A stretch of DNA of 64,000 bases from Dioscorea cayenensis subsp. rotundata (Eukaryota; Streptophyta; Magnoliopsida; Dioscoreales; Dioscoreaceae). Location: the NCBI RefSeq assembly GCF_009730915.1, contig NW_024086870.1:62001-126000 (forward strand), in the 5' to 3' direction. A program made the position numbers and the translations under genes. The notes below the pieces were generated by a model. It was not told where the DNA came from. It saw only the letters and a program-made list of their open reading frames with translations, and did no database searches. Shown here in pieces: positions 3,502 through 63,300 of the stretch; position 1 is the stretch's first letter, and each line of letters starts with the position of its first letter.

Positions 3502-6330
3502 ATGTCGAAGAAGAGGAAATCGGAGGCGAGTAGGCTCGATGAGATCGATCGGACGATGTACTCGGCCTTCTCTAGCGCCGCCAACTCGCTTTCACAGCTC
3601 TACACGCAGGCCATGCACCATCAGAAGCTCTCCTTCCAAGCCGGCGAACGCCATGCGTTGGTTCGTATCTTTGCTCTCTCATTTGATCCTGATACTTTAT
3701 TTGGGTTCTCTTTTTGAGATTTTTTCTATGTTCTGGTTGATTCTTGTGTTGTCTGGCCAGCTAAAGGTATGATTTTTATCATTATTGTGAAATTATATTA
3801 GATAAATTAGGTTTAAATTTGAGAATTAGAGTTTAAGATGAATTTTGTGGGAAAACTAAAATTGGATGTTTGAGGAGAATTAAAATGGAAAACTTACATA
3901 TCTTCAACCAAAATGATATCATGATTATAACATTTCCTTAGTATTTTCCTATCTACTCACAATTTTGTATGGTAAAATTTATTGAAAAGAGAGCCAAGTA
4001 TGAGTCCACAAAGAATGCATGGCTTGTTACTGATTTGATTCTTGATTAACCTCCACTTAGAAGTTATGAGAAGCAAACCAAATTCTGGGTTATCATTGAA
4101 GTTAATTGAAAAGTTATCCACTGGTTTACTACATCTTATCTAGTTTTTGTCTTATATACTGTAATGTTTCTTCTATCGATGTGCATTTATATATTAGCTC
4201 TGTTTTTTTTTTTTTTATTATGTTGAAGTGTAATAGATTTGTCGTGACACCACGGTCCCTGTGATTTTCATTCCTTAAATCCTTTCTGTACATTTATACC
4301 ATGCAGTAAACTAACTCGTCACATGTCTATGATAAACAAGGGCATGTGCTAATGAAACATGAGTTTAAACATGAACTGTGGATGCCTTTTATTTAGTTGT
4401 GATTTTCTATGAATTTTTTATACTATCTACCTGCTCTGTACGTGCTTACCACATTCCCTTTGCAAATTTAATTTCTTCTACTTTCCTGATTTTGGGATTC
4501 TTTGTTTCTTGTATTAATTTGGTCAAGATTCCTCTTATTAAGGATAATCTTTATTTTGATATGGTCAAAAAGGAAATATTTCTTATAATTTTGAAGCATC
4601 AAGAGATGATTTGATGCTCAATTTTTAAAAAAACAATAGTAAGAAGGCAGATGTCTAATCTAGAACTTGCCTATGGGATGGAAGGAGTAATGTACCTGCT
4701 TTGATGTGGTAAGCATTAATTATGATCCTTGGTGAGGCCATTCAACAAATTTCAATTGGTGCATTTTGTTTATGTTTTCTTTAGTGTATATGTGAATGCA
4801 TCCATAACTTTGTTGGGAATAATTAAAGGATTTAAAGCCAATGGAGTGCTTTCCGTTATTTAGATGGAACTCGTTTCATTTCTTCAGCTATAACTTGTCT
4901 CCTTGTTATCAAAGATGATCTTCTATTAATAATTTTCATGCATATTGTTATCTCTAGTTGTCCATAGTAGGATTTTGTTTTACGTAGTTGGAGAGGTTTT
5001 AGAGGCTGATTTTGGGAGGTGTTGGTTGTTATTGTGATTGGTCATTGGGTCTTATATTTATTCGTGGTTGTTCATTGGGTCTGATTTTGGGAGGCTTGGT
5101 TGTGCTTGTTTTATGTGTGCTTCCTGAAAAAATTGATTCAACAAGAAGGTAAGTGGTTTATGAGCTCATTTAAGACTTCTTTTTGAAGTAACAAAAAACT
5201 TTGAAGGTACTTTTGTTTGGGGCAGGGACCATTTTTGTGGAATGTATTTTTGAAATTCCATATGCTTATGATCAAGATTTGATAGTTTTAGTTGCTTAGA
5301 GAAAATCAATCTATGGAAGGATAGTGGTAAGATTGCAGTTGTTTTCTGTGATTGGAAATAAAGCTTTATTACTTTTACTTTTATGTACTGATTGATCTTG
5401 TTTAATCATTTATCATATTTATCTTCATTAACTTGCTTCACTGATGGACCTAATAATGTATTGCAAAAGTCTATTCAGTGGTATGTTAGGTTTCTATGAT
5501 GCCATATACTATTTATGCACCCATGCAGGAGAAGTTTTATCAGTGGATTTTGAGGCAGCACGAGGAAGGATCAAGAGTCACTGTAGCTGATATAGTCACT
5601 CATATGCAGGTCCATTGACTCTTCCACTTCATAGAATCTAGCATCTTATTCCCTCTGTGTTTTTTCAAATTCTTCCACCTTGCAGAATCTTATGTTCTTT
5701 CTTTCTTTGTTATCACCTTTTGTTTGCTGTCATATAAACTATCCCATTCTGTTTCTACTATGCCTTAAGGTGGCTACCATTGACTTTTATTGTCATGATC
5801 ATGAATATGCACCTTCTTGTTATGTGCATCAATTTGGGATTTTCTTTCAAGTCAAGGAGCAAATGCTTTTGAGTAATGTTTCTTCAAATTTCTGCTGGTA
5901 GATAGATTGATCAATTTTAATGTAAAATTTGGCGGTAATCATGCAGAATGAGATTACATACGGAGGGGATGATGTATCCTTGTCGCCGAGATTGCCACCC
6001 CAACACCAGCCCCCTCAAAGCACGCCGCAATATACAAACACAAGTGGCTACTCCTTACCGAGCGTAGGACTTTCCCTGCGGACCAGTCTTTCTGATCAAA
6101 CAAAGAACATGGTTTTCTCAAATGCACTCTCGAGCCCTGTTCGGCGAAGCCTTCAGCCCTATCATCTTGCCCAGTCTGGTGAACACCTGGATGGTGTTCT
6201 GCCGCCTGGAAATGGAACTAGGAACCAAGAACCCTACTCTTCCGGGCAAACACGGGAGCACACTTCTTTTGGTTTGACTGATACATCGATGGATATGCAT
6301 TCAGATAGCCCAATCCGTGAACCATATTGA
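3502..6330 (+). CDS. Small basic N-terminus plant protein of unknown function, 207 aa, three exons
   Basis: Exons are 3502-3660, 5529-5609 and 5947-6330. The junctions keep phase, with donors GTTCGT and GTCCAT and acceptors ATGCAG and ATGCAG. The protein starts MSKKRKSEASRLDEIDRT, where KKRK is a likely nuclear localisation signal. A predicted helical block follows (residues about 15-80: SAANSLSQLYTQAM, then EKFYQWILRQHEEGSRVT). The last two thirds are a disordered Pro/Ser/Gln-rich tail ending SPIREPY. The first 80 residues look conserved across plants, but I cannot assign a function. The ATG at 3502 is preferred over upstream frames because it begins the conserved part. The first intron is 1.87 kb. 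The 3' flank carries a 39-bp TG microsatellite. Confidence 0.8.

Positions 6331-50759: not shown

Positions 50760-50768
<9 letters not shown>
50760..50768 (+). repeat. Left 9-bp target site duplication TATAATTAA
   Basis: The nine bases are identical to 60313-60321 and directly abut the element's left end, GTGGAAATTGCC. The left copy partly merges with the TA microsatellite, so chance cannot be wholly excluded, but the AATTAA part is outside the simple repeat. Confidence 0.75.
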
Positions 50769-51208
50769 GTGGAAATTGCCAAAAAAACCCTCTAAGTTTG
50801 TAAAATTGTCAAAAACACCCCGTTAGTTTTGCAATCCCTAAAAACCCCCTCCTTTTAAACTCTATGTTTTTCAAACCCCCAAAGCCTGTAACGGATGTGA
50901 ACGGAGTGAGTTTCAAATTTTATGGACGAAAATGCCCTTGCATGGGGAGTCGCGTGGGTCAGCACCATCTCGGCGGTTTGAGAGGAAGTGGGGTGGATTT
51001 TGCAGAGGTAACCCCAAGAGGCAATTTATTGAGCCGCTTTACTTGCTTTTTCTCAACTCGCGTCTTCGACTTTTCCATTTCGAGTTGTCTCCGAAGTTGT
51101 CTCTACTGCTGAGCCTCAGTAATCTGAGCTTTTTCCCTTTCCACTCGAGTATCTCGAAGGAGAAGTCCCCCATGAACTAGTTGGCATTTCATCGATTTGC
51201 AATCTAAG

Positions 51209-51699
51209 GTATCGAGTATGGTTTTATGTTAACTGCCTGCTACAAAAGAAAGATTTTTTTCGGTTTTTGTTTTGTGCTCCTGCTTTTTGTTGGAAGATAT
51301 CGAAGTCTGCAGGGGATTTCTACTGGGGTTTTTGTTAGTCCATGAGGGAGATTTCTCGGTGGGGTTTTGTTTTGTTTTGCATTTTTCAGTATGTATACAC
51401 TATCGAAATAGTTTTTTTCGATTGTTATGATTTGTGTAATATTTATAATGTACATTTCCCTTTCGTTTGATATGGTTGCGCTTTTACAAACGAGGTTGAC
51501 TTTTTAAGAAATGAGATGTTACAGCTTAAAATTTGTTGTCTCTGCTTTAAGTATTCTCGTCTCTACTTTAAAAAAATGGGTCTCTGCTTAACATTTTATA
51601 TCACTCGCTTTAATAACCGAGAGTTTACTGCTTAAAACCTTATATTTCCGCTTAAACTTTTGTCAATACTGCATGTTGAATGTGTTGTTATTGTCGCAG
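51209..51699 (+). other. Probable 5' intron of the MULE ULP-like gene, GCTTTAA repeat array
   Basis: Bordered by GTATCG and GTCGCAG. From 51525 to 51670 it contains about six degenerate units of 20-22 bp, each with a CTCTGCTTTAA-like core. Confidence 0.5.
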
Positions 51700-52543
51700 T
51701 TTGTGATTATGGCGATCAACCCTAGTTAATGGGTGATTCTATTTGACACCTAGTTATGGAGACCTTAGTCGAATTGAAAGATAACACTGACCCTCTATTA
51801 GGGAGATTATTCGAAGGACACCGTCATACGGATTCATCGAGTCGAAAGTTATATACCAAAAGAGGACCCTTCTTGATTCTCTTTTGCAAAGTGCGATGGT
51901 CGCATCAATAAATTCGGGATCGGGGAAAGCCTCATGAGTTTCGAGACCTCGAGATGTGGCCCTCGTTCTTGGTATGCGTTGTGATGGCGAGCGCTATCAT
52001 CTTCGTAAGAAGAAAACCCAGTCGACATTCGAAGGGAGGTATCTATCAAAAACCCTACGATAGACAGGAGACTCCATCAAGAGCATTCTGCAGTACAACT
52101 TGTTCGACGGGAGGGAGAAGAAGATAATTTTGTCAAACTCGATGGTGCACCTCATGGGTACGATCCCTCTTCCCAAAATACATCATGCTTTCGGTTCCGA
52201 GCTGGATCGTTGATTATATCGATGATCTACCGTACCATGGGGCGATCACGCATGTAGGCGCGAGCGGCTACGAAGTGGCTTATGGAGGATATTCCACAAG
52301 CGGTAGCTCGAGTGCAAGATAGATGCACGGAAGAACACCAACATGGTACGATTAAGGGTTGCTCGGTCGCGCTTAACGTCCGGTTTTACGAGTCGACCGG
52401 AGCGGGGAAGAAAGTCCGTTCGCAAGATCCCAAGGATGTCGTGCTACGGTGAAAAGTATTTCACCTGAAGCAAGCGACGGTGAGAAACCGACTTGTCATC
52501 GCTCGATGGAAAAAGAGGTAATAAATCATGGACGATGTTTAAC

Positions 52544-52750
52544 GTAAGCCTTTAATGTTTAAACATATTATTTAGGGTTTAACTTTCAGTATTTACCGCT
52601 TTAAAACTTATTTATACTCGGTTTAAATATTTTGTTCTCCGCTTTAAATATATTCTATAACGTTTAAATATATAAACACTCGTTTAAATATAGTTTTTAT
52701 AGTTTAAAATGAATGATTTTCTTTGAAATTGTTTGGTTTACATATGTTAG
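52544..52750 (+). other. MULE intron made of GTTTAAA units
   Basis: A GTAAGC donor and an ATGTTAG acceptor enclose about eight units of 19-22 bp with cores GCTTTAAA, GTTTAAAT or GTTTAAAC. An alternative donor, GTAATA, lies at 52518. Confidence 0.55.
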
Positions 52751-54047
52751 TTTTTCGAAATGGTTCCCGTGAATCGTCGAAGAAAAAATATTTATCGGGG
52801 CCAACCGACCGGATGGATGCTATCGCTCCCGAACCACTTGCTCGGCAGGGGATGAGAGGGTAGCTCTCATCGCTGCTGCCGCTCGGCCTGCTCTCCTACT
52901 TCCGACCACCATCGCCGCGACGCATTCCTCGACGCCGAAGAAGCCCTCCCCTACCCCGGCAGATTGCAACAACCCCCCCTACCACGACAACAACGCGGTC
53001 CCCGATCATGGCGTCCCCACGACCATGGCGACCCTCCGACCGTGGCGTGCCCACCCGGCGATATTAGGCGAAGATGTTACTGCAACTCTTACGCAGGCGT
53101 GCGATATTGACGATCGAGTTTCCTGACGTCGATCGTGTTGAGGCAGCTGGAAGGACGTTCACAATCGATCGCGCCATCCCTCCAACGAATCGAGCACCCG
53201 GGACGAACGAGGTGTCGACTGACAACGCATTTGCGACATCATAGGGAGGGTCGTTTCCAAGACGGCCACATTCGAAGAGACTTGCGAAAAAGAGGAGAAC
53301 AATCCGCCTCCGTCTCCACCGCCGTACCGACGATGAAACAATATCAACACCATCGTGGCGATCGATGTCGCATCGAGTCTCGTCGCCGTTTATGACATGG
53401 CCATGACGGTGGAGGACATTGTAGATGATGTGGCCGCTTGCCATGGGTTGAGAAAGGTCGTTAACTCTCTTCTTAATGAAATCCCGACCCGGTGGAACCC
53501 GATCTACGAGATGCAGTATCAAAGATGGACACAATTCCCTCAAGATCAAGAACAAGCTAAGGCGTGTGTCTCCCAATAATGCTTTCGTTATCGCTGGGCC
53601 ACGGTTGAGAAGATCGTTGAATCACTGTCGCGGCCGTGGCCGTGATCGACAAATGAACGCATCGAGCAGGACACAATCCCACCCACAACAAGAACCATGT
53701 AAAGATGTGTCATGCGGTTGATCGTTGCCGTCAGTCGTCCCTCAGATCGGAGCGGACACAATCCCATAACAAGAACAACCATGTAAGGATGTGTCTGCAG
53801 TTGATGTTGTCGCCGTCGTCCCCGCATCGAAGGAAGATGCTCGCCGGTGCCGAACACGTGAAGGCTCAACGGCAGTGCCCCATGAAGACCCCGACAGAGC
53901 AACGAGAGAGATGATCAAGGCCAATCAACAATGGGACCAAACGGCTCGAAAAGCTTTTATTCGAAGAAGAAAAATGGGTGACTGCCTCGTTTTAACAAAT
54001 ACTGAGCGGGAGTTGATGAGATTTTCCTCAACTCGCTCTATGGATGG

Positions 54048-54252
54048 GTAAGTCTAAAGTTTTTTATGATAGTGTTTAAAGTTTTTTTATTATAGTGTTT
54101 AACGATTTTCTAATAGTGTTTAATGTCTTTATGTTATCATTTAATTTGTCTACTTAACGCTTAATTATATATAATATCATTTAACAATTGATAATATCAT
54201 TTAAATATTTATAATATGGTCTTATTATATCTCATATCGTTTAACCTCGAAG
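54048..54252 (+). other. MULE intron made of GTTTAA units
   Basis: A GTAAGT donor and a TCGAAG acceptor enclose about nine units of roughly 20 bp, each with a TAGTGTTTAA or TATCATTTAA core. Confidence 0.6.
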
Positions 54253-54989
54253 ACTTTGTCGTGTGGAAGAATGACGTATCGACTACTACCCGGGACAAAT
54301 TATACACACTGCTTGAGAGGAAGGAGATGGTCACGGATGATGTGATGGACGCTTTTCAGTATGCATAATACAAAAAGTCGCTGAGCAAAGAGCCATATCT
54401 TTACAAGAAGCGCCTCCATCACCTGACCGCTATACTGCTTTATGTCAAACAGGGACGACGCGCATGAAACAATTATGGCTATGGTCGGGATGCTGTACGC
54501 AACTCGCGATGAAGTTCAAATTGTTATCCTCCCGATAATCATGAATGACCACTTCCATGTCGTCGTCCTTGACAATGATAAACAAGAATACATGCATTAT
54601 TCTTTGTGTCCGGGGTATGATAAAGACGCGTTGGACATGGTAAGTTCTTTAATTATGTCCGATTAATAGTGTTTGGTATTTAATCAGTATTCTAATCTCA
54701 ACTTGCATATCTCGACAGTGAATCTATTCGACAATCGTGTCGATATGGAGTTCGGTGAGTCGGCGACTGACAGTACCCACTGCTGCACGACATGGAAACC
54801 CCGAGCCAAAAACAAGGAAGCGTCGATTGCATGCCGCTCACGCCATGCGGTTTATCGAGCAATTACTTTAGGGTGAGAAGTTACGGCTACACGAGCAGAC
54901 GTTCCTTACCTCATATTAAGGTATGTTACCCGCATACTTAAGGAGGGGAGGGCAACCGGCGTCCATGAGAAAGGGGGATCATCACAGCA

Positions 54990-55320
54990 GTGTTAAATTT
55001 TTGTTTTTGAAGAACATGTCTTGTATATCTCAATGTCAATTTTGTTTTTCGAATGTAAACTCGACAAATTCAATTCATTGTTTTTTTGTTTCCGAAGAAC
55101 ATGACTTGTATATCTCAATGTAAATTTTGTTTGTTTTCAATTGTAAAGCAGGTTAAATTCCATTCAGTTTTATTTCATTGTTTAATTTATGTTCTAATTG
55201 TGTACATTTCAGTTTCATTGTTTAAATATACCATATATCGTTTAAACATCAATTTGAAATATTTTAAATTACAGTGTATCCGTTTAAAATAACACTGTCT
55301 CTGTTTAAATAAATGCTTTC
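54990..55320 (+). repeat. Convergent intergenic part of the MULE: 88-bp tandem copy and GTTTAAA array
   Basis: AAGAACATG followed by CTTGTATATCTCAATGT occurs at about 55010 and 55098 (period 88). GTTTAAA-type units follow from 55145 to 55320 in plus orientation. This lies between the ends of the two convergent MULE genes. Confidence 0.55.
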
Positions 55321-55919
55321 ATTAGAAAGTTGCCCATCAATACACAATGTTTCTCTTTAGAAGTCGGCTTATTTACAATGCCTAGTCGGTGACAGTTTCA
55401 TTGCAAGATCTCACGATTGTGACCGGATCCATGGCGGCGAGTTGTAATGTAACTCGCGGACATCAAACGCTTGCGACTCGATCCTCTTTTCGCTCTAGGG
55501 ACGGCCGCCGCCTTTCGTCACAAAGCGGTCGCAAACGAAGCTCGGGATTTTCCGCCCTCAAGGCGTATCGTCATCGCGGGTATGGGGGAATATAGCTTTC
55601 CTTATATGTCAATTTGTAATTGTCGACGGTGAAGTAGCCGCTAATAAATCGATGAACGTTGGTGTCTGTCTGCATTATTGCAGCGCAAGCGTGTTTGCAA
55701 GGGATACCATAAACTTGCCACCTTCGATATGAAGAAGTTCTGATGGCAAGATCTACAGAGTTGCTGCACTGGTCGATCACTTTGTCACAACGACCAACAC
55801 GAAGATTTCGGCTATCCTCAATAATGATCTCTACCTTCGAATGTATGTCTGGGCATAAGTAGGTCTCCTATATGTTCGCTTGCTCACGCCGGTTACATAA
55901 CATGCGCATCAACTTGAAC

Positions 55920-56100
55920 CTGGCAAATAAGGTTAAACAAAGATAGTGATGGTTAAATAATTCGTAAACATGTTTAAACATTATTGTAAATATTTAAACG
56001 AAAGGATTAATATTTAAAGTCAGACAAGTCGAATTAAACAAAGATTGAGAATATTTAAAGGGTAACACTAAATGTTAAGTGTAAATCAACATTCGCAGAC
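55920..56100 (-). other. Transposase intron with inverse GTTTAAA units
   Basis: On the minus strand a GTCTGC donor and a TTGCCAG acceptor enclose GTTTAAT, TTTAAAT and GTTTAAC cores spaced about 20 bp, in minus orientation like the gene. Confidence 0.5.
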
Positions 56101-57358
56101 CTTATGGAGTCGACCATTTTCGTCACCGGTAAATGACGAGCTTCCTTGATCCAAGCATTGAACGACTCCGCGACATTTGAATACATCTCACCCCAACGTG
56201 TGATGAGCTTCGGATTTATTAATCAACCAGTGATGAGCTTCGGGTGATGTGGCATGCAGTTCATTCACGGTATCATCGAAATCTTTAGCCGTAGATGCCC
56301 ACGCAATGCGGAAGCATATAGACCAGCACTCCTCCCTCAATGCCTTCTCAAGTCTGACATTGGCTTTCATAAAATTGGCCTCCAAATGTCGAAGACAGTA
56401 TGCATGTGGCGAAGAAGGGAAGACTCTCGCAATTGTGTTCACAAGGCCCTTGGACCTGTCCGACACGAAGGTAATTATCTCATGATAATCTCCTTCCTCG
56501 TATAAAGCATTGCCTAACTTAGATATGAACCAAGTCCAATTGCCATCGGTCTCGTTGTCGACTATACCGAAGGCGACGTGGAAAAAACCATTGTTTCCAT
56601 CTTTCCCTGGGGCACCCAGTAGTATACCCCGATATTTTCCAAGGAGGTGGGTACCATCGAGAAAAGCAGTGCCCCACGCAAGCCCTTTTTGAATCCCACA
56701 ATACACGCTACGAAAGAAAAGAATGCACGTTTAAAACTATCACCGTCTCTTTCCACGATCGCTAGCACTGCCAGGGATTTGTCTCGACCACCTTATCCAC
56801 ATACCAAAGCAAGCATCAGTAGTCGGAGATGTCACTCGCTGTCGAGGACCACCCGGCATGCTCTTTTCCCAACCAAGCTCGCTTGTATGGTATGTGGACA
56901 CCATGTTCCCGCAACATGTCCTTCCGAATGTCGATGGCCTTGCATAAGAGTCGGTCTTTGAGCTTCGAATCACTCGTACGCTAACCCATTTTTTGCGCGC
57001 TTTGGATGTGACGCGAACCTATGCCACCAACGCAAGTGTGTGACGGGTTGATTGTCTTGATTCTAAAAGTATGTTTGTTATACTCTTTTGATGCATGAAG
57101 ACGGCAACGACAACCATCGGCAGCGCATTCCACGATCACCTCGATGTTTTTCGTTCTTTATGAATTTGAAGTCAAAATTCCGTTTGATTACATGATTTCG
57201 AAGTACATCCCTAAAATGTTCGACACCGTCAAAACGTTGTCCAATATCCAACGACAGCACTTCAAAATGATCCGGCGAGGAAGGAAGACATCCCAGCACG
57301 TCAGGGGCACCATGGGGATGAGCAGGGAGCACTCGCGAATCCCGAATTCCCCATGACA

Positions 57359-57612
57359 CTTCGATCAAATGAAAAGATCAATATGTTAAGCGGAGAATAT
57401 AATGTTTAAGTGATAATGATAATATTTAAAGCGTTAAATTAAATACTTAAGCGATTCATCAGATAATGTAAAGCGACTAGTACAAGATGTTAACGATGAT
57501 GAGACATATTTAAACATTAATGAACCCATACTAACTGGATCAAATAAAAGAGAAGGAACTTCTGACGAGTAAAAACTCGTTTTCATTAGGATTCAGCGAT
57601 GGCACATCTTAC
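57359..57612 (-). other. Transposase intron between PB1-like and MuDR parts with inverse units
   Basis: Donor GTAAGA and acceptor TCGAAG on the minus strand enclose CGCTTAA and CTTTAAAT cores in minus orientation (57385-57500). Confidence 0.55.
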
Positions 57613-58139
57613 GTCTCGACAACAAGATCAACTACAGCACATTTGAAGATGGAGTACACGTGACACATCCACTGGAAGTCGACATCGTTTTCTATTGGAC
57701 AAACCGTTTTATATCCATCCGGTGTGATAAACTTAACCACGATAAGAGAAACTTGAGACCCCATCGCTCACATATCTCATCTAACACCAACTCCCAAGAA
57801 GTCCGAGCCGTGAACATTAGCACTCTTTCCCTCCCCGATTGAATCTAGCAATACCACAAAAACTCTCCATAATATATCGGTCGAAAAACCAAATCGATCA
57901 AAACCAAATGAAATGAAGAACAAAAAAATAAGGCGAAGAAGAAGAAGAAGAAGAAGATGTAAACAACAAACAACGATCGGATAAGGGCGAACAAAAAGTG
58001 CATGCGATTGTATGCATAGAGGTTAGACTAGAGCGTGATGTGATTGGGCGGTATTTTTTTCCTCCATCCCAAGGGCAAAAAGGGAAATATATATCATCTG
58101 TCGCGATGAAGACATATTGTCATCGCTCGACATGAGTAT

Positions 58140-58625
58140 CTGTTTAAAGCGTCGAAAGCTTTTTTTATGTTTAAACAAATACATATAGTGTTTAAAAATA
58201 ACGGTTACTGTTTAAATAAAAGTCTATATCATGTAAATAATACGTAAAACCGTTTAAATATAGTGATTTAACTGTTTAAAATATATGTTATTGTTTAAAT
58301 TGAATGCTTTCACTGACATCGCGTTGAAGATGGGTACCTCCTGGGTCACTGTTTAAACATTTTTATGTATTTTCTTAAACACCGTTGTCATTGTTTAAAG
58401 AGTAAATTGATTATTGTTTAACTTTTTGTATTGTTTACAATGTCGTTCTTTGTTTCCCAAATTGTTTTTACTATGTCTATGTTTAAATTTCACAAGTTAT
58501 CTCAAGGAGACACTCAAATAGGTTTGTTTGTTTAAAATATTTTAAAGCGCTTTACTATGGAGAATCGATTAAATATCATAAGTTCACATTCAAATAAACT
58601 TGTTTCGTTTAAAATAAAACATTTA
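58140..58625 (+). repeat. Longest GTTTAAA array in the MULE
   Basis: At least twelve units with a GTTTAAA or GTTTAAAT core, spaced mostly 19-23 bp (58140-58450 and again 58500-58625), in plus orientation. It appears to be part of an internally duplicated segment related to 55145-55960. Confidence 0.7.
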
Positions 58626-58847
58626 CAGACATTTACAACGTCTTCTCGGACCTTGGGACACTCACGACTCGACCCTCGTAGAAGCGAAACAAGTGTGCAT
58701 ACATTCGAATGCTCACGGCGGTTGCATAACATACGCATCAACTTGAACCCTGACAGCGTAGAACATTAAAAAGGTTAAACAAACACATTCATGAAAAAGC
58801 GTCTATTAATCAATGTGTCGTGGTCGACTTAGCGAAGATCACGATAG

Positions 58848-59305
58848 TTAAACACGAAAGTAATAGTTGTCTATCTGACGTAAGGTTCTTAAGCGGTAAC
58901 AAAAAGTCTCAGTGATAAATATCAACTCCGTCTTAAAGGATGTTTCCTTATCTCCCTCCTCTAGAGAATCCTCATGATCACGCATAAGTGAAAACTTTCT
59001 TTTCGACCCAGTCGAAATGGCCGCTAATTGCTTGCCGTCATCCATCGCTGGAGAATCCTCTGCATTCGAGCGATTATGCGAGTATTTCGACTTGGGCGGG
59101 GAAAAAGATAGTTTAACTTGTTCGTGATTACTGGTGATTGATTCTCAAGATAAGGAGGATCACAAGACATCCTTTCGAGATAGAGTTGATCTTGAACTTT
59201 CAGTCGACTCCAGCGAATATCATACTGCGGGGAAGTAGATGACGAGGAGGAAGAGGAGGAGGAGGAGGAGGAGGAGGATGAGGACGACGAGGAGTGGTTG
59301 TCCAT
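58848..59305 (-). CDS. Ser-rich minus-strand open frames in the MULE, unidentified
   Basis: One frame (59305-59024) starts MDNHS, runs through about twenty Ser encoded by an AGG/AGA-type purine repeat on the plus strand, and continues TSPQYDIRWSRLKVQDQLYL. The adjacent frame (about 59105-58848) reads SKYSHNRSNAEDSPAMDDGK and KRKFSLMRDHEDSLEEGDKE, an acidic/basic linker-like composition. Together they may be a linker of the transposase gene, connected with the duplicated PB1-like segment further upstream, or a separate small MULE protein. I recognise no family. A frame shift near 59100 separates the two parts. Confidence 0.35.
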
Positions 59306-59441
59306 GGGAAGGGTTCTTCCTTGTTATTTATGGTGTGAAGTCCATGAGCGGTGACGCTCGTATCCAGAAAAAAAGTTAAGCGATGCGATGGGACCGAAAG
59401 CGTTGGCTGATGACGAGCAGGTGTTCGGATATTTATGTTAT

Positions 59442-59481
59442 CGTGCGTAAGAATTAATGCGATCATTAATTCTTATGCACG
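59442..59481. repeat. Near-perfect 18-bp-arm hairpin
   Basis: CGTGCGTAAGAATTAATG and its inverse, with one mismatch (a G-T wobble in RNA), are separated by CGAT. It lies upstream of the Ser-rich frame on the minus strand. It could be a terminator-like or regulatory hairpin, or a relic of another small insertion. Confidence 0.7.
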
Positions 59482-59739
59482 GGATCTCATAACCTTACAC
59501 TGTCGCGTGCCACTGCGATAATTCGGATCAAAGCGAAAAAGATCACCGTTTCTAGCGAGACTTTGAGAATTTACGTGTTAATATGAATAGTTATACATGT
59601 AAAGATAAAGTTAAAGCGGAGATGACAATTATTAAACATATTGGTAATATATTTAAAGCAGGATAATAGCAAATAGTTAAACGAGTATTTAAAAATATAC
59701 AAATAGATAACCATAAAGCGAGAAGAACTTTACTAACTG

Positions 59740-60180
59740 AAATGAACTCGTTTTCAAAGCGGAGACAACGATGGCACATGCTTTGTCTCGACTGATAAAA
59801 TCGACTACAACTCATTTGAAGATGGAGTGCACTTGACCAATCCGATGGAAATCAACTTCATTTTCTGTTGGAGAAACCGATTTATATATTTGGGTATGAT
59901 AAACTTCACCCGGACTACTGCAAATGAGATTTGCCCTATAATAAAGCACCGCGGAATGGTCAAACTGATAGCAACGAAGAGATTCTCACCGTATTATGAA
60001 ACCGACAAAACTGAAGTCGAACAAATCAAATGAGGAGAAATGAGGAGAAGAACAAGATGTACTGCAACTTCTAGGCATTGTCTATCGAAACCAAAGCGAA
60101 AAACCGCTGAAAAGGTTGAGCATGATGTGATTTGACGCTTTTCTTTTCCCACTATTTTTCGAGGGCAAAAATAGGATTTC
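59740..60180 (-). repeat. Duplicated PB1-like 5' region of the MULE transposase
   Basis: This segment is a diverged copy of about 57550-58090. Shared words include AACTCGTTTTCA, CGATGGCACAT, TTTGAAGATGGAGT, TTCTNTTGGA and GCGTGATGTGATT. Both copies can encode a VKFI-P...ENDVDF/ENEVDF stretch on the minus strand. The splice donor GTAAGA of the inner copy is replaced by AAAGCA here. Confidence 0.65.
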
Positions 60181-60312
60181 ACAACATTGACCCATTTGAA
60201 GTGAACGGTAGAGGGTAAAAGGGAAGTTAAACACTAACGGAAGGGCTGTCCGGGGTGTGTAAAAGTAGGAGGGGGGTTTTTGGGAAGTTTTGAAAATTAC
60301 AGTAATTTTCCC

Positions 60313-60321
60313 TATAATTAA
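60313..60321 (+). repeat. Right 9-bp target site duplication TATAATTAA
   Basis: Identical to 50760-50768 and directly adjacent to the element's right end AATTTTCCC. It lies 77 bases before the FRIGIDA-like start codon. Confidence 0.8.
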
Positions 60322-60398
60322 AGCTATAAAATTATGTATATAATCATCTTGATATAGTGGCACTGGCCGCATTGGCCTAAACCGAAAACCAAAAACCA

Positions 60399-63300
60399 AT
60401 GTCGGGGGAGCTAGTCTCCGGCGAAAGTCTCCAGAAATCCTTCAATGAGCTCGAATCCCAGCAAGCCCTAATCTCCAATTGCACTTCCTTATGGAAATCC
60501 CTCTCCATTCACTTCTCCGCGCTGAAAAAGTCCCTCTCCGATCGCTCCCACGCCATCGATTCCAAGCTTAAAACTCTCGATGCCAGCACCCAGGAATCCC
60601 TCGCATCCCTTGACCTTCGTGAATCCTCCCTCTCCGATCGCGAGGCCGCTGCCGCCGCCCGTATACGAGAACTCCAGCTTTCCGCCCTTGCTGACATTGA
60701 AAATCCCAATTCGAAGCAGCCTGACGATGTGCCAGGCATCCTCCGATGGTACTCCCGTCGCATGGACTCTTCTGGGATTTGGCGCTTCATGGTGTCTCGC
60801 CGCAAGGACCTGGCTCTTCTCCGGAAGGAGATCTCTGATGCTGTGTCGGAATCCGTCGACCCGGCTCGGTTGGTACTCGACGCTGTGAATGATTTCATGG
60901 AGAAGAAGATGAGAGAGAAGGGAGGCCCTGATCGGTGCTGGGCGCTGGGAATGCTGATTCGTGTTTTGTATGATTTTGACGCCGGGAATGCGCTGAAGGT
61001 ATCTGGGAGTATCCGTGAGAGGGCGGCGAAGGTCGTGGAGAGGTGGAAGGAGGAGGCGAAGGAGGAGGGAGGAATGATTGGAGGGCCGGAGGCGCAGATA
61101 CTCTTGCAGCTGGTGGTGGTTTTTGGGTTGCAGTCCAAATTTGAGCAGGAGTTTTTGAAGAAGTTGGTGCTTCACCATGCTTCCAGGAAGGAAATGCCCA
61201 AACTCGCTACTTATTTAGGTTTTGGGGAAAAATTGGCAGGTGACATTGTTATTCTTTACATTTTTCAGTATCTTAGTTCTTGATTTTCTCAAAGATTTCA
61301 TAGTTTTGTTGTTACTTCTGATAACAAGTTCTTGTTTACTGCTGTCAATTGCTCCTGTTTTAGATAAGCAAGTTAGATATCACTCTTGGACGCTTTATTA
61401 AGGATATATACCATTTAGTGACTTTCCCTTGTAAAAAGATTGTCTTTATACTTTGTTTTGAGATGTTCTTGTAATTTACTATGTTGTTAATCAGTTTGAA
61501 GATGTTGCCTTAGGATCTGGATGTTTGAACTCAGTTAGCAGTTGCAAAACAATGAAATGGCAGTGATTAGGAATTAGTTGAATTCTTCTTAGTCAATGTT
61601 TTATATATGTCGTTTTAAGGGTACGTAGTGTGTTCTTTTGAAGTGCCATTGGAAGTGATTTTTAGTTGTTACTGGGGAAGGACAATGGGGTGTTACAACA
61701 TCATAGTAAAGATTTTCATAATTACAGTGAATTGTTTGGCTCCTGTTGGTTCATGATAGTAGTCTGATATCTGATTAGTTCTAATACGAAAAGGTTCTTC
61801 ACAGGCTTTTCGGTTGGAAAAATTTTCAGGCTGGATGGCCCATGGCTTCTTTATTTTCGTCTTAATGTTTTGGGCTCTCTAAAAGATGTGTTAGTGAATT
61901 GGAGTCCGTATAAACAAGATTACGAGACATTGTTGTTACATGCTTGTTTGATTTGCTTGTCGGGGGTGCATGCTAATTTTGCACTAGGGCTTCCTGAATT
62001 TAACCGACAGACCTTTGGATTTCTTTTATAACTAATTTTTGTTGTGATAAACTATAGAGAGAAGTATATTCATGTGACTTGCATTGTGACTTATAAAATT
62101 TGAATCAGTAACCAGACCATTTAGAGAATTATACCCTTTTTGAGTGTTGAATCACTATTGGTAAGGGTAATGCAGTGAGAAAGCATATTGTAGGTATGGA
62201 TCACACAAATCAAAATTAACACATACACCTAAGGTAAATAAAGATTTGCTTGAAGGATTCAGTGTGTTTATCTCTTATTCCTATTAAGATGTACCTCAAG
62301 AAACCTAATGTCATTTTAAAACACTCGTTTGATCCATTTGCTGTTGTAGCTTTTCTTTATATGGAATAACTGTTTTGTACCATCATCAAACATTTGATTA
62401 AGATGCTTGCACACCTGCAGATATTATTGATGAGTTGGGGAAGACTGGGAAGGAGCTTGAGGCTATCTACTTTGCTTATGAGTCTGGTTTCACTGACAAA
62501 TTTTCTCCAGTCCCTCTCTTGAAGTCCTATGTTCAAAGCTCAAGGAAGAATGCCGCATCCATATTGAAGAATGGGAATCGCTCCCCCGCTGCTACGGTAT
62601 GCCAATGTGAACGTATTGATTGTGCTCCTTATTTTGCATCATGAAATAGCACAAAATTACTAATGCCACATATAGTGCAGTTGGTAGCATTATGCTTCTT
62701 ATAATTGTATATCAAATCCTCTTCGGTATGGGACAATGTCCTTGTGATGGTCATCCATACTTCTCCAAATTTCTGTCTTTGTTTCAAAAATCTTTTGATT
62801 TATTATGGAATGTTGTAAGTTAGTGAGAAGGTTTTGCTTGCCTATCCTTGGTCATAAGTTCAATCACCTCGGTCCATACTAAGAGGAAACATCTAATCCT
62901 ACTTATTCATAGGAAGAGTCAATCACAATGGAGTTGAATGCCCTCAAGTCAGTCATCAAGTGCGTTGAAACTTACAAGCTAGAATCAAAGTTCACTATCA
63001 ATGGTCTGAAGAAGCGTGTCGCTCAGCTAGAAAAAACCAAGGCTGACAAGAAGAAGACGTCAACACCAAACAAGTCTCATATGAAGAGAACAAGACCTGG
63101 TGGTCCTCCTGCTCCTTTTCGGCCAACCAAAGCAAGCAGGACCTTGAATACATCATACCCTTCACTTAATCAGCGTCCACCCATTCCACCTCAAGTCGGA
63201 GGATCTCGCCATTCCTTCAAATATTCTGAACAGGGAGGCTTTGATGGACCAAGTTCTGGATCTCACAGATGGAGTCCCAACCCAGTTTCACAACCATATC

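Follow-up and report, generated by a model that had tools for sequence, protein, structure and literature searches.

In the window analysed here (64,000 nucleotides, positions 62,001 to 126,000 of contig NW_024086870.1 of Dioscorea cayenensis subsp. rotundata), a Mutator-like element (MULE) carries arrays of a short AT-rich word, GTTTAA, repeated about every 20 bp, and we propose that these arrays are probably family-specific targets, predicted from their sequence and arrangement, for the DUF1985/PMD-Ulp1-like protein of the VANC/Kaonashi type that the element itself encodes. A second MULE family of the same genome keeps the array positions, the spacing (multiples of about 20 bp) and the orientation, while its core is a different word, TGTGTA. 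A first-pass annotation of the window had reported eight blocks of such units and had read them as introns grown from, or homogenised to, one minisatellite; the observation is confirmed, and the interpretation is partly supported.

The element is a MULE, with a transposase that has a MuDR DNA-binding domain and a SWIM finger (PF10551, PF03108 and PF04434 all score over their Pfam cut-offs) and with a 9-bp target-site duplication; together with the Ulp1-like gene, the transposase domains support its earlier description as a ULP-bearing MULE. Because the duplication (TATAATTAA) is perfect at both flanks, the limits of the element (50769-60312) are exact. In 27 loci examined, both ends were recognised in eight, and the duplication is perfect in seven of these, the other (L012) having five mismatches. 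The terminal inverted repeats are degenerate, as in VANDAL-type MULEs, with 49 of 74 positions identical between the left and right ends. The genome searched amounts to 584 Mb, and the family search gave 1715 first-look candidates, 40 of which were scored; from these, 20 fetched copies were aligned with the window copy, and the majority sequence and its reading frames derive from the resulting 21 rows, in which poorly aligned ones (L011, L024, L026 and L028 among them) were kept.

All eight blocks contain more sense cores (G[CT]TTAA) than expected from dinucleotide-shuffled sequence: the observed count was reached in none of 1000 shuffles for five blocks and in 4, 5 and 5 shuffles for the other three, these counts being undercounts, as the expression omits the GCTTTAA variant. 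Motif density is thus above that of shuffled sequence, a comparison that had been set beforehand as able to overturn the observation. The background of the same core in the window outside the element is 0.55/kb on the plus strand and 0.35/kb on the minus strand. Over the 21 rows (pieces under half their expected length being skipped), the sense core reaches 23.56/kb in the seven arrays, against 0.51/kb in coding pieces and 0.52/kb in the other non-coding pieces; the corresponding antisense values are 5.69, 0.30 and 0.67/kb, so that the strand bias holds in other copies of the family.

The cores are also regularly spaced. Within the blocks, TTAA-to-TTAA distances peak at 20-22 bp and, over the 21 rows, core-to-core distances are mostly 20 bp (156 pairs) or 21 bp (111 pairs), with a second peak at 40-42 bp; stretches of the arrays are regular in the majority sequence. 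In the whole genome, three cores at a period of 19-22 bp give 16,076 matches (33 in the backwards control) and three cores at 29-32 bp give 37 (52 in the control), all counts including overlapping triples; core and period therefore belong together. The linkers between cores behave differently: over 31 linkers from seven blocks, identity is 0.44 within blocks, 0.37 between blocks and 0.33 for shuffled letters, and shuffling the labels gives a within/between difference as large with a frequency of 0.0005. The blocks have the core in common and are largely distinct in their linkers, a pattern that repeated local expansion around one selected word would fit better than one sequence spread everywhere.

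The placement and orientation of the blocks (Table 1) follow the two genes of the element, which lie on opposite strands. Five blocks have an intron-like placement, as judged from frame ends, donors and homology, and to that extent their description as introns holds; the block 55145-55320 follows the ULP stop (~54993) and the block 58140-58625 is upstream of the transposase gene, so that neither is an intron. Additionally, the block 59580-59700, part of a decayed second copy of the transposase gene, does not count as independent, which leaves seven arrays where eight had been counted. Cores are on the plus strand in the four arrays located within or directly behind the ULP gene, and on the minus strand in the two of the transposase introns. 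The claim that the core is oriented with transcription consequently stands inside the genes, where the TGTGTA family obeys it too, and fails for the promoter block 58140-58625, which has 13 cores on the plus strand and 3 on the minus strand while the transposase gene is on the minus strand.

The arrays are kept by relatives that lack the genes of the element. Two of these have perfect 9-bp target-site duplications: L032 (1731 bp, 323-2053), whose left end is 80.8% identical to the window family over 193 bp, and L034 (2423 bp, reverse strand 179-2601), with 80.9% over 199 bp. Their sense and antisense cores number 27 and 1 (L032) and 34 and 2 (L034). A third relative, L029, has a left end 70.9% identical over 172 bp and a right end 79.5% identical over 78 bp in common with the window family, its left flank being N. 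None of L029, L032, L033 and L034 matches the transposase or the DUF1985/Ulp1 pieces of the element. As a separate observation, L032 and L034 are Pack-MULE-like. In each, GTTTAA arrays flank a GC-rich stretch (~890-1490 in L032) that resembles a gene fragment taken up by capture, and the open frames of the two stretches are similar.

The motif switch was found among other DUF1985 loci of the genome, where 127 of the 150 scored are over the cut-off by our own row count (from 455 first-look candidates). Four of the 127 were fetched (L035, L036, L037 and L038), together with L039, the 5 kb that follow L038. L036 is a member of the window's GTTTAA family, and Tandem Repeats Finder gives 20-bp rows at its GTTTAA arrays. 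L037 and L038 belong to another family, whose DUF1985/PMD part shares 46-50% protein identity with that of the window element. Both carry TGTGTA arrays upstream of the start codon and downstream of the DUF1985 exon, with spacings of about 20 bp or multiples of it, and L038 has a further array before its Ulp1 exon; no Ulp1 exon was found in the 3.3 kb of L037, which has the first two arrays. In L039, TGTGTA occurs on the minus strand in both transposase intron intervals, again at multiples of about 20 bp, as had been predicted beforehand from the window element. In L038 and L039 joined, plus-strand TGTGTA is limited to the ULP half, with one exception, and the strand of the word follows the gene (14/1 vs 1/13, Fisher p 2.9e-6). 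There, 23 of the 29 TGTGTA words fall in five intron intervals (1097 bp) and one in 3562 bp of exon pieces, a count to be read with the fact that the bounds of three of the five intervals were set after the arrays had been seen. Per kb, TGTGTA amounts to 3.64 in L038+L039 and 2.74 in L037, and to 0.66 in the window outside the element, 0.52 in the window element and 0.61 in L035.

This arrangement resembles anti-silencing systems known from Arabidopsis, and the statement in the first-pass annotation that no such description was known overlooked the VANDAL/VANC literature (PMC5735166, PMC10398659, PMC13317346). VANDAL21 and VANDAL6, with VANC21 and VANC6, combine a MULE transposase with a DUF1985 gene, and their introns, intergenic regions and terminal non-coding DNA hold dense AT-rich motifs of one orientation, which differ between related families (PMC5735166). 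In particular, VANC21 binds YAGTATTAY, a motif that the introns and other non-coding parts of VANDAL21 carry at high density and in a single orientation; VANC expression leads to loss of DNA methylation at VANDAL21, and the elements on which VANC6 acts have other motifs (PMC5735166). Anti-silencing and RNA-directed methylation meet at non-coding tandem repeats (PMC10398659). According to a 2026 review, some VANC genes carry Ulp1 and act on the motifs of their own group, and KIU-carrying VANDALs recognise specific motifs (PMC13317346, citing Sasaki 2022 for the latter); the combination of a DUF1985/PMD-Ulp1-like gene and a MULE is likewise shared with the Kaonashi (KIU) MULEs that lack terminal inverted repeats and with eudicot Ulp1-bearing VANCs. 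Unlike in VANDAL21 and VANDAL6, the motifs here are GTTTAA and TGTGTA, and the gene also has an Ulp1-like part. Additionally, DUF287, which is present in VANC, had no match at E 0.1 in Pfam scans covering pieces of the gene.

Since the element has the main sequence features of the VANDAL/VANC system (DUF287 not having been found), we read the arrays as probable docking sites. In this mechanism, the AT-rich core, whose copies follow one another roughly every two helical turns, mostly share one orientation within an array and lie in non-coding parts, almost never in exons, would be bound by the element-encoded DUF1985-Ulp1 protein. The primary Kaonashi paper, by Sasaki in 2022, reportedly stresses motif, density and helical periodicity. 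The bound protein would then remove DNA methylation from the element and from related non-autonomous elements, which would allow expression and transposition; coding constraint would keep the arrays out of the exons, and hence in introns and spacers, and arrays and protein would change together. The kind of system would thus be one already known from Arabidopsis, and what we describe looks like a new example of it, with two motif classes in one genome. A check of the open-licence literature, a thin one, found among the papers listed none that has the strings GTTTAA or TGTGTA together with VANDAL or Mutator-like.

Besides the interval bounds mentioned above, several observations weigh against docking arrays of this type. 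The window's own copy of the DUF1985-Ulp1-like gene is broken; in the one open copy scanned, a relative in L017 (8125-8970, minus strand), PMD scores 44.9 bits (cut-off 34.9) and DUF1985 35.2 bits (cut-off 35.1), a margin of 0.1 bit; and the Ulp1 halves of single copies reach 14.7 and 18.2 bits, below the cut-off of 20.7. Conservation over recent copies is 0.908 for the core and 0.889 for the linkers (p 0.014 overall, the A positions alone being clear), a weak difference that is expected for mostly dead copies, yet gives no support for selection. In the relative L031, GTTTAA is kept and the linkers have diverged (112 of 117 core and 318 of 399 linker positions identical), a contrast that may be inflated by periodic cores guiding the alignment. 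GTTTAA is somewhat more frequent in the second family (1.52/kb in L037 and 1.13/kb in L038+L039) than in the window outside the element (0.68/kb), though not as arrays. Finally, L035 has neither a GTTTAA nor a TGTGTA array; Tandem Repeats Finder gave no row there, which is weak evidence, as the same tool caught one of the three TGTGTA arrays in L038, and L035 may hold an array of a third motif.

An alternative is that the arrays are binding sites of the transposase, like the subterminal repeats of other DNA transposons, serving either transposition or transposase-driven demethylation. The gene-less relatives keep their arrays and would need transposase in trans, and MURA hypomethylates the terminal inverted repeats of non-autonomous copies (PMC10398659), both of which suit such a role; the arrays, however, extend over 8 kb in introns, and not at the element ends. 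The motif also differs completely between the window element and L038+L039, although the two share 64% protein identity in the main transposase exon and 61% in exon 3, the DUF1985/PMD part being ~50% identical and the Ulp1 pieces 39-46%; this argument is weakened by transposase exon 1, which at 46% is no closer than the DUF1985 parts. Within the family, mean DNA identity is 0.77 in the PMD exon and 0.93 in transposase exon 2, a difference that points the same way and is biased, as the MULE domain was the criterion for choosing copies and the alignment contains misaligned rows, other non-transposase parts being equally diverged. We regard transposase sites as unlikely.

A neutral AT-rich minisatellite, expanding by slippage wherever coding constraint is absent and bound by no protein, would explain the local similarity of linkers, and the weak conservation of the core suits it. 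Against this, one core recurs in seven arrays with different linkers and is tied to a period of about 20 bp, TGTGTA replaces GTTTAA as a set in another family, and slippage alone does not spread one core to unlinked blocks, so that we hold this explanation to be very unlikely. The first suggestion, of introns grown from or homogenised to a single introner-like or splicing-related minisatellite, is scarcely credible: sense-oriented arrays do occupy five putative introns (T-rich sense strands suit plant introns, and introners too are repeated sequences in many introns), but the linkers are largely block-specific, the arrays also fill the 3' spacer, the promoter and gene-less relatives, L038+L039 hold another motif in the same five intron intervals, and L035 has neither array after its DUF1985 exon. 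An introner in particular is rejected, because its unit must coincide with introns and create them, and the arrays here are not intron-bounded.

Within the reading of the arrays as protein targets, one further suggestion concerns their strand. The sense-strand bias, which ten intron arrays show in two families whose motifs are unrelated, could be a rule that reflects a second role on RNA or splicing, or a directional anti-silencing through the transcribed element; we think this rather doubtful, and the bias may instead be inherited from old orientations.

The remaining features of the element are collected in Table 1. The transposase gene is on the minus strand, with two putative introns in the majority frames. 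Its decayed duplicate is recognised by identities in the majority sequence of 76% (57506-57743 vs 59673-59915) and 90% (55875-55922 vs 58704-58751); as a side observation, exon 1 and the promoter of the duplicate are 76-81% identical to those of the gene, and it could be a former third gene. In the plus-strand gene, a Pfam scan of the middle exon gave a weak DUF1380 match alone, which was disregarded, and an AlphaFold model of the isolated DUF1985 piece, with a mean predicted local distance difference test score (pLDDT) of 38, was left unused. The middle part of this gene has an 84-bp repeat (53664-53822), and the other family has E/K-rich peptide repeats (L038+L039 joined, 3886-4551), such internal repeats being located in both families either between the DUF1985 and Ulp1 parts or behind them; variable repeat regions have been reported in VANC proteins. 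The border of ULP-gene intron 1 is uncertain from its donor sequences.

Two observations concern sequence variation between the copies. Where other copies have GTTTAA, many cores of the window copy, L013, L016 and L025 are GCTTTAA or GCTTAA, in several blocks and with similar linkers; the motif could have changed in concert, or the assembly could be systematically wrong there. The intron-end flanks 52745-52780 and 54236-54262 vary oddly between copies (small C, T, G shifts), unlike simple CpG decay, possibly through basecalling errors in methylated repeats. Beyond the element, a Frigida-like frame (60381-61283) starts about 70 bp past its right end, placing the element directly beside a host gene.

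Table 1. Features of the MULE copy, in window positions; "majority" refers to the 21-row majority sequence, and intron assignments are putative.
Feature	Position	Strand	Remarks
Left target-site duplication	50760..50768	.	TATAATTAA
Whole MULE copy	50769..60312	.	9544 bp, decayed coding parts; perfect 9-bp duplication on both sides; full-length relatives
Array, putative 5' leader intron	51524..51670	+	core on +; 7 cores in majority
DUF1985/PMD-coding exon, VANC/Kaonashi-like gene	51700..52544	+	broken in window copy; frames in 21-copy majority
Array, putative ULP-gene intron 1	52545..52740	+	core on +; GTAAG at expected donor in 2/20 rows
Variable middle exon with internal repeats	52760..54048	+	open frame in majority
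Array, putative ULP-gene intron 2	54049..54245	+	core on +; GTAAG donor in 18/20 rows
Ulp1 (C48)-like exon, first half	54246..54640	+	majority frame; Pfam C48 13.0 bits, below cut-off 20.7
Ulp1 (C48)-like exon, second half with stop	54720..54993	+	Pfam C48 23.1 bits, cut-off 20.7, majority sequence
Array 3' of ULP stop, not intron	55145..55320	+	core on +
Transposase exon 3: SWIM finger and what we take to be a CCHC-like knuckle (picked out by eye)	55385..55920	-	SWIM 40.7 bits, majority
Array, putative transposase intron 2	55921..56070	-	core on -
Transposase exon 2: MuDR DNA-binding domain and MULE domain	56075..57377	-	PF03108, PF10551
Array, putative transposase intron 1	57385..57562	-	core on -
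Transposase exon 1	57563..57875	-	open frame in majority; PB1 20.5 bits, below cut-off 23.6
Long array upstream of transposase gene, not intron	58135..58630	+	core on +
Decayed transposase-gene duplicate with array-bearing introns	58640..60170	-	majority-sequence self-comparison
Array in intron 1 of the duplicate	59580..59700	-	not an independent array
Right target-site duplication	60313..60321	.	TATAATTAA

Taken as predicted docking arrays for the DUF1985/PMD-Ulp1-like protein, these repeats suggest that a further plant genome hosts an anti-silencing-type system, one in which two or more motif classes coexist and pattern matches number in the thousands. The swapped motif, with the same positions, spacing and strand, would offer a clean pair for testing how DUF1985 proteins and their DNA targets change together, and the GTTTAA/TGTGTA pair may be useful for finding the residues that read the motif.

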